Assembly (NCBI GenBank): GCA_019636845.1
Contig: JAHBWV010000001.1
Coordinates: 1,302,001-1,366,000 of the forward strand
DNA from: Phycisphaeraceae bacterium
GTDB lineage: Bacteria; Planctomycetota; Phycisphaerae; Phycisphaerales; UBA1924
Reading direction: 5' to 3'
Length of the DNA: 64,000 nt
Positions within the stretch are counted from its first letter, which is position 1; each line of letters opens with the position of its first letter. This document shows, piece after piece, positions 16,748 to 17,933 of the stretch. Below the pieces are notes generated by a model. It ran no database searches, had not been told where the DNA came from, and saw only the letters and a list, made by a program, of their open reading frames with translations. A program made the position numbers and the translations under genes.

Positions 16748-17077
16748 GCCAGGACGAGTCCACGGGAGACGCTCGCGCGCGTGGCGGGATCGTGAAAAGA
16801 ACGCAGAGGTCGCGGAGGTAGCAGAGTTTTATCGAGGAAGAGAAGAGTTTGAACGCGAAGGGCACGAAGATCGCGAAGAAGAGAGAGACTGTGAACGTGG
16901 AGGAACGCGGAGGACGCGGAGGAACGCGGAGAAGAAGAGGACGCCGCGAGGGGCGAAGCGATCAGAATCTGGTGGCATGCCTGCTCGAAGAGCAGGCATG
17001 GTGAGGGTGGCGCGCGACAGCGGGCCCGGCGTCGCGGGCGGGTCGTTCGTGCGGGATGGTGCGCGTGGTGCTTGTGG
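16748..17077. repeat. Gene-free spacer with three families of degenerate purine-rich short repeats
   Basis: No convincing gene is seen in these ~330 bases. From about 16795 to 16950 they contain three runs of 8-10-base imperfect repeats, all strongly purine-rich on the plus strand: AACGCAGAGGTCGCGGAGG-type (near 16800), AACGCGAAGGGCACGAAG-type (near 16850), and GGAGGAACGCGGAGGACG-type (near 16900). A dispersed palindrome (16971-17000) follows, then G-rich sequence to the end of the next gene. The plus strand switches abruptly here from C-rich to G-rich (23 G versus 8 C at 16801-16860). Confidence 0.7.
16971..17000 (+). repeat. Dispersed palindromic repeat, copy 1
   Basis: GGTGG precedes an 11-bp perfect stem (CATGCCTGCTC at 16976-16986, GAGCAGGCATG at 16990-17000) with loop GAA. 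The same core in inverted orientation recurs at 17270-17300, differing mainly by compensated changes at the inner stem. It behaves like a REP/BIME-type extragenic palindrome. Confidence 0.75.
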
Positions 17078-17857
17078 TTACGCGGCGGGTCGGTCGCGGG
17101 CGCGGCGCGGGGTGTCGCGAAGGGTGCGCGTGGAGCCAGCGGCGGCGCGGAGGGTGGGTGCGCTGGGCGCGGGTGATGCGGGGGCTGGGGGTTCGTGTTG
17201 CGACTGATGCGTGGGCTCTTCGGATGGGATGGCGTCGTCCTCGCGGCCATGCGTTGTGACGCTGTTCTTGCATGCCTGGTCTTCGCCCAGGCATGCCACC
17301 CGGGAGCTCGCGTTGTCCTTTGACTGAGAGCCCGAGAGAGCCCCCGAGCTTGCTTGCTGGGTGGCGCTCGGGGCTCCCCTTTGCGCGCGTTGATCGGCGG
17401 TATTGTCGGGGACTGGCTTGGGGTTGGGGATGGGCTTTGGTGCGAGAGCGCGGGACTCGCGGGCGATGGTGGTCGCGGTACGGCGGATGAGTTCCGCGTG
17501 GCGGTGGAGTGTGCGCTGGTCGGCTTCGGGGTCGCGGCCGCTGGGCTGCGGGGCGGGGCTTTCGAGGATGTCGAGGAGTTTGCGGAGCGAGACGGGGCGC
17601 GCGGTCTGGCCGAGGAGGCGGGCGCGGAGGGTGAGGAGCTGGTCGTAGGCGTCGATCTCGGCCTGGACCTCGGGGGTGTTGATGTAGTCGATGAGTGTGA
17701 GGAAGGGGATGTTGAGGTGTGCGGCCAGCCGGTCGAGGGGGAGGTTGGCCTTGAGCATGTCAAGGACAAGGAGGTGTGCCCAGCGTTGGCGGTCGGTGGG
17801 CGCCGCAGGGGTGGTGTTATGGGCCGCTTCGTGTGTGAGGTCGGGTGAGGCGATCAT
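17078..17857 (-). CDS. Putative HTH-containing hypothetical protein with low-complexity tail
   Basis: 259 residues. The ordered part (about 22-140) is helical: a segment with LPLDRLAAHLNIPFLTLIDYI (38-59) resembles a helix-turn-helix, followed by a charged helix and a second helical region with TLHRHAELIRRTATTIARES. From about 140 onward the sequence is Pro/Ser/Thr-rich and probably disordered; residues 188-196 are encoded by the palindrome at 17270-17296. I do not recognise a named family. A possible promoter (17867-17892, minus strand) and a perfect 26-bp dyad (17908-17933) lie directly upstream, consistent with a regulator, but DNA binding is inference. The true C-terminus may be shorter if the tail decays. 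Confidence 0.6.
   Translation of the reverse strand: MIASPDLTHEAAHNTTPAAPTDRQRWAHLLVLDMLKANLPLDRLAAHLNIPFLTLIDYINTPEVQAEIDAYDQLLTLRARLLGQTARPVSLRKLLDILESPAPQPSGRDPEADQRTLHRHAELIRRTATTIARESRALAPKPIPNPKPVPDNTADQRAQRGAPSATQQASSGALSGSQSKDNASSRVACLGEDQACKNSVTTHGREDDAIPSEEPTHQSQHEPPAPASPAPSAPTLRAAAGSTRTLRDTPRRARDRPAA
17270..17300 (-). repeat. Dispersed palindromic repeat, copy 2, inside a coding frame
   Basis: A 10-bp stem (GCATGCCTGG at 17270-17279 with CCAGGCATGC at 17287-17296) and a 7-base loop, flanked by CACC. Read on the minus strand it has the same GGTGGCATGCCTG...CGAAGA...CAGGCATG order as copy 1. It lies within the tail of the gene at 17078-17857 without breaking the frame. Confidence 0.75.
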
Positions 17858-17864
17858 GGAGATG

Positions 17865-17892
17865 AATGTACGGCGCGGCGGGAGTGATGCAA
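17865..17892 (-). promoter_or_regulatory. Possible sigma70-type promoter for the putative HTH gene
   Basis: On the minus strand TTGCAT (17892-17887) and TACATT (17870-17865) are separated by 16 bases, and TACATT ends 7 bases before the ATG at 17857. Three of six and four of six consensus matches. The perfect dyad at 17908-17933 sits about 15 bases upstream of the -35. Confidence 0.35.
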
Positions 17893-17907: not shown

Positions 17908-17933
17908 GTCACTGACAGACGTCTGTCAGTGAC
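17908..17933. promoter_or_regulatory. Perfect 26-bp inverted repeat, candidate operator
   Basis: The half-site GTCACTGACAGAC is followed directly by its exact reverse complement, with no spacer, giving a gapless 26-bp palindrome centred at 17920/17921. It lies 51 bases upstream of the putative HTH gene. A gapless dyad cannot fold into a normal hairpin loop efficiently and is not followed by a T-run, so a protein-binding operator is more likely than a terminator. Confidence 0.55.

Follow-up and report, generated by a model that had tools for sequence, protein, structure and literature searches.

A perfect palindrome upstream of an HTH-like gene

The window analysed here, a 64 kb stretch of DNA from a Phycisphaerales bacterium (G000:C1:1302001–1366000), raises the question of which protein acts at a perfect, gapless 26-bp palindrome, GTCACTGACAGACGTCTGTCAGTGAC (coordinates 17908–17933), a proposed operator upstream of a gene for a 259-residue protein. 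The first-pass annotation likened it to the operators of dimeric regulators, with TetR-type repressors among the candidates and autoregulation by the downstream product as the simplest idea. Direct inspection of the sequence confirms the palindrome, the longest gapless one within the window (the next is 18 bp); in 60 Markov-1 simulated windows the longest was 22 bp.

The 259-residue ORF (17078–17857, minus strand) is by profile match a member of an HTH-like family and is the proposed target of the regulator considered below. On that strand 50 bases separate the palindrome from the ATG at 17857, and a -35-like hexamer, TTGCAT (17887–17892, minus strand), starts 15 bases past the palindrome, such that the distances annotated previously (51 bases to the start codon and about 15 to the -35) are accurate to within one base. 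A -10-like hexamer, TACATT (17865–17870, minus strand), follows TTGCAT after a 16-bp spacer; here and throughout, -35 and -10 elements and start sites are predictions, with promoters called by a score devised for this analysis. The -10 ends only 7 nt before the ATG, and the mRNA of this gene and its close copies may therefore be leaderless. Short hairpin repeats (CATGCCTG...CAGGCATG) are present at 16976–17000 and 17270–17296, that is, 3′ of the gene and inside its 3′ part, and similar copies occur at loci L018 and L035.

Genome-wide distribution of the site

The genome scan for the half-site pair that the annotation had proposed returned 24 sites of the form TGACA-N6-TGTCA, against about 1.25 expected from the window composition and none for a reversed-pattern control. 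Twenty-three of these have the exact form CACTGACA-N6-TGTCAGTG, with variation within the 22 bases confined to the central six. Because the outer bases and the centre of the palindrome differ among copies, the functional unit is better described as this 22-bp form (17910–17931), with half-sites at 17910–17917 and 17924–17931 and a variable spacer at 17918–17923. Near-misses in the genome number none with one mismatch, two with two and five with three (six for the reversed-pattern control); 23 exact copies without near-misses is stricter than is usual for a regulator, and duplication of the HTH genes explains part of this. The exact 22-bp form is close to genus-specific, with 23, 28, 8 and 19 copies in four genus members and a single copy in each of two among 146 genomes searched outside the genus.

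Sixteen of the 24 sites lie upstream of 15 members of the HTH-like family (one member, L031, has two) and another precedes L024, a family-related ORF without the HTH core. The remaining seven are found at genes for a WYL-domain regulator (L019), RecA (L034), the single-stranded DNA-binding protein Ssb (L020), a NERD-domain protein (L016) and a TauE permease (L033), at L023, where a small HTH gene and a DUF418 gene diverge, and at L030, an unknown gene whose site is weaker. The L031 sites form a tandem pair 53 bp apart (~5.0 helical turns), and tandem pairs 33–34 bp apart (~3.1–3.2 turns) are present in two other genomes, G032 (C2:105757/105790, C8:38480/38513 and C8:42605/42638) and G067 (C10:13295/13329, C13:110/144 and C18:24466/24500).

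An amplified family of HTH-like genes

The family profile identifies 18 members in this genome, 15 of which have an exact site upstream; the other three (C1:918092, C1:67098 and C2:65923) have none nearby. The window locus has about 1 kb in common with L017, L018 and L021 at 84–99% identity. The 259-residue protein has no credible Pfam or NCBIfam match, and a search for TetR models at E values up to 10 gave none, with two chance-level matches to unrelated families. A Pfam scan of eight family members found a sub-cut-off HTH_Tnp_1 match in one, a PHROGs search yielded one weak unnamed family, and a PDB profile search gave chance-level matches only. A single-sequence AlphaFold model of the window protein predicts an HTH-like helical core at low confidence (mean pLDDT 52). 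The family, which is unnamed, has long low-complexity tails and has been amplified repeatedly, with 18 copies here and 17 in genome G018.

Genome G018 contains no WYL gene at E<=1e-20 and not one TGACA-N6-TGTCA sequence. Thirteen of its 15 copies that were read (L291–L305) have a different conserved promoter block, CCTATCAAANCCCTATTGACNNNCCGTYAAAANCCCGTAT, and a comparison of inverted repeats at four of these loci found nothing common to them. The family thus draws a control element from its host lineage, as fits a target of regulation rather than the binder.

A single WYL regulator is the candidate binder

The genome encodes a single WYL-domain protein (one match at E<=0.01), a 329-residue product of a gene at C1:2311328–2312314, about 1 Mb from the window, and a site is centred 67 bp upstream of this gene. 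The protein has the N-terminal winged HTH, WYL and WCX organization of WYL-domain transcription factors, with HTH_11, WYL and WCX matches above cut-off (PF08279, 1.3e-10; PF13280, 4.5e-10; PF25583, 2.6e-17) and an HTH_PafC match below it. Its nearest PDB chains by sequence are WYL regulators, including the PafBC entries 6sj9 and 7p5x; 9pfq (a WYL domain-containing protein) and 8tp8 (a DeoR-family regulator), both of which we take to be DriD, match over the full length (8–314 on 11–315). Activators of the DriD/PafBC type bind single-stranded DNA through arginines of the WYL domain; in the protein considered here, R191, R206 and R212 do not vary among 12 orthologues. The half-site TGTCAGTG is compatible with the PafBC consensus tTGTCRgtg (PMC5656591).

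Named relatives from a WYL profile search are mostly from Phycisphaerales and other Planctomycetota; strain ZRK32 carries two orthologues on its chromosome. Among 79 WYL-orthologue loci TGACA-N6-TGTCA occurs within 300 bp upstream in 12, where the remainder of these loci would predict 1.19, with spacer controls of one for N5 and zero for N7; the other 67 have no exact site within that distance. The spaced motif precedes distant orthologues with different flanks and spacers, as at L071 (53% identity), L078 (50%) and L092 (40%), and genus member G001 has only a single half-site at its WYL gene. At two of 13 named WYL loci examined (L182 and L183) a PD-(D/E)XK nuclease gene (PDDEXK_1) diverges from the WYL gene across the site, the one at L183 being AddB-like yet below the AddB cut-off; this arrangement is reminiscent of the bidirectional driD promoter. 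The counterpart stretch in the window genome (L019:2162–4000) looks similar by eye, with no family match in the part examined.

Site counts track the WYL gene rather than the HTH family

WYL orthologues were recognized at E<=1e-20 in 47 of 121 genomes and the HTH family by its profile in 40 of 121, and all cross-genome tests below are on raw genome counts that ignore shared ancestry. Within the family but outside the genus, the 15 genomes with a WYL gene have a mean of 4.73 sites per genome versus 0.70 in the 54 that lack one (Mann-Whitney p=2.3e-6); in the other families of the order the association is weak (p=0.055). In this part of the family the mean is 0.89 sites where HTH members occur without a WYL gene (n=28) and 4.70 where a WYL gene occurs without a detected HTH member (n=10). 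In a two-way split, the WYL effect within HTH-negative genomes has p=6.7e-5 and the HTH effect within WYL-negative genomes p=0.13, which shows that site number is predicted by the WYL gene and not by the HTH family.

At recA, 11 of 44 genomes with a WYL gene have the motif upstream, versus none of 66 without (Fisher 1.8e-5, kinship ignored), and the N5 and N7 spacer controls are absent from all 110; the other 33 WYL-positive genomes have no exact site at recA. The 11 genomes represent seven genera, with four in the genus of the window and the others being G032, G048, G052, G067, G098, G127 and G131. When the region upstream of recA was scanned without bias for gapped 5-mer palindromes, TGACA with a gap of six ranked first in WYL-positive genomes of the family outside the genus (4/14) and tied for first in those of other families (3/26). 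Other genera also have sites upstream of ssb (G067) and rmuC (G052 and G067). Sites at DNA-repair genes, a feature of DriD/PafBC-type activators, are thus present in this genome (recA and ssb) and in other genera (recA, ssb and rmuC).

Sites are phased upstream of the recA and HTH promoters

At the clear promoters, those of recA and the HTH genes, 17–81 bp separate the site from the -35 that follows it, and most of these distances are spaced at intervals of about 10.5 bp. The distance from the 22-bp unit to the -35 is 17 bp at the window gene, at its close copies L017, L018 and L021 (which have TTGCAT at identical spacing) and at L031; 26–27 bp at recA, L022 and L025–L028; 59 bp at L032; 69 bp at L035, L029, L024, L036 and L037; and 70 bp for the distal L031 site. 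For the unique distances at these chosen recA and HTH promoters (17, 26, 27, 59, 69 and 70) R is 0.94 near 10.5 bp (p~0.004). In the relatives, all calls scoring >=10 give distances of 15–18, 26–27, 50, 60, 69, 79 and 81 (11 unique values, R=0.81, p=0.001); those at recA are 27 (G048, G052 and G067), 18 (G032) and 60 (G127 and G131), and the recA gene of G098 has a close second-best promoter call at 36.

The less clear promoters of the window genome include two out of phase (the NERD gene, 86, and the TauE gene, 65) and one in phase (L030, 16), and its WYL and ssb sites have no good promoter by this scoring. Adding 16, 65 and 86, such that every own call with a score >=10 is included, the phasing is not significant (R=0.72, p=0.16), nor is it for own calls pooled with those of the relatives (p=0.13) or when no threshold is applied (p=0.66). 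We therefore claim phased upstream placement for the recA and HTH promoters and those of the relatives only; for the entire regulon it is not supported. DriD/PafBC-type regulators bind within the core promoter (at the -35 or at -26), whereas the recA and HTH sites here precede a recognisable -35, a position that fits an activator.

Which protein binds the palindrome?

From the sequence comparisons, the palindrome is probably the site of the genome's only WYL regulator, a DriD/PafBC-like activator, with the HTH gene a target and not the binder. The proposal of the first-pass annotation that it serves a dimeric regulator is supported; its further suggestions, a TetR-type repressor and autoregulation by the HTH product, are rejected on the lack of a TetR domain, the genome counts and the gene context. 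It is very unlikely that the 259-residue protein and its paralogues bind the palindrome to repress or activate their own genes. The position of a site just upstream of 15 of the 18 family members and the predicted, low-confidence HTH-like core speak for such binding, but the half-sites are identical even though the window core domain is only 19–26% identical to those of six more divergent aligned paralogues, recA, ssb and the WYL gene have sites as well, and G018 has 17 copies and no site. Moreover, seven genomes (G048, G052, G067, G072, G098, G127 and G131) have sites and no HTH-profile match at E<=0.001, and the HTH family has no effect on site count once the WYL gene is considered.

A role as the lineage's LexA (SOS) box would account for recA and ssb among the targets, and the genome does contain a true lexA (TIGR00498). 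LexA usually autoregulates, but none of the 24 sites lies near lexA (L045, C1:359478), whose upstream 300 bp were read, and the LexA box was rejected for the lack of a site there. The sites instead track the WYL gene, with the motif missing at recA in every WYL-negative genome on a split by WYL presence alone, and their position upstream of the -35 suits an activator. Planctomycete LexA is said not to use the E. coli motif (PMC3108266), which leaves its box open and is a point in favour of LexA; on balance we consider this assignment unlikely. A REP-like or mobile repeat that spread along with the HTH genes and does not act in regulation is highly improbable. Seventeen of the 24 copies do adjoin duplicated HTH-family genes, and a segment of about 1 kb is common to the window, L017, L018 and L021, but the sites precede promoters and gene starts, the 6-bp spacing is strict, and the recA site recurs in seven genera with differing flanks and spacers; on position, spacing and the recA occurrences in other genera this explanation was rejected. 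The annotation had itself named a widespread repeat at gene ends unrelated to regulators as the case against an operator: widespread the sequence is, but most copies lie at gene starts, and its occurrence tracks the WYL regulator.

A proposed WYL-dependent damage response

We build on the sites, their gene context, their link to the WYL gene and their spacing, all established by computation. By analogy with DriD and PafBC, the WYL protein would, as a homodimer, sense single-stranded DNA through its WYL domains, then bind TGACA-N6-TGTCA and activate, in class I geometry, promoters that have their -35 further downstream and on the helical face that the site occupies; activation rather than repression is what we infer from the site placement. 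The regulon would comprise its own gene, recA, ssb and about 16 HTH-like copies, including that in the window. Since sites precede recA, ssb and the regulator's own gene, this is probably a DNA-damage response, with damage as the presumed inducer suggested by recA, ssb and rmuC as targets. Activators of the DriD/PafBC type are induced by DNA damage independently of LexA/RecA.

Three known systems share features with this proposal. DriD of Caulobacter crescentus resembles it as a WYL-family homodimer (as proposed here), in the full-length PDB match and in a GAC...GTC pseudo-palindrome found close to repair genes as well as to the regulator's own gene, with a divergent gene at its own promoter (PMC12340889). 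It differs in that its site, ATACGAC-N7-GTCGTAT, overlaps the -35 (PMC12340889), whereas CACTGACA-N6-TGTCAGTG is upstream of it, and in that recA and ssb are among the targets here. Mycobacterial PafBC likewise is a WYL DNA-damage regulator controlling recA, and its consensus, tTGTCRgtg-8nt-TannnT, contains the half-site (PMC5656591), but it binds as a heterodimer to a non-palindromic site (PMC6789036) in the -26 region (PMC10693628), rather than being one WYL protein whose perfect palindrome lies outside the core promoter. The Mycobacterium smegmatis regulator SiwR is a WYL homodimer that acts from a palindrome as an activator under genotoxic stress; however, it controls adjacent genes from a site between the -35 and -10, at -26 (PMC10693628), in contrast to the genome-wide sites upstream of the -35 here.

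More tentatively, it is possible that across Phycisphaerales a WYL-run damage response replaces or accompanies LexA control of recA, with class I activation from phased upstream palindromes, and that a multicopy, perhaps selfish, DNA-binding family may have spread by carrying a damage-inducible promoter. Each genotoxic stress would then switch on about 16 HTH paralogues at once, and WYL-type damage responses would extend to Planctomycetota with a class I phased geometry unlike that of the DriD, PafBC and SiwR promoters considered here. Such a geometry would be relevant to the way in which WYL proteins contact RNA polymerase. The open-licence PMC literature searched says little about DNA-damage control in Planctomycetota; no title or abstract there concerned a WYL, LexA or damage regulon of planctomycetes or Phycisphaerae, and one planctomycete BrxR homologue is mentioned in PMC9122601. 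An operator, a regulator and a testable list of targets including recA are now proposed, and an unnamed, repeatedly amplified HTH-like family is exposed and tied to the proposed damage response.

Sites are also present near a gene encoding an HTH and S24-peptidase protein (L164, G067), an MmeI-like restriction-modification gene (L167, G067) and an N6/N4 DNA methylase gene (L178, G052), hinting at further stress or defence genes in the regulon.
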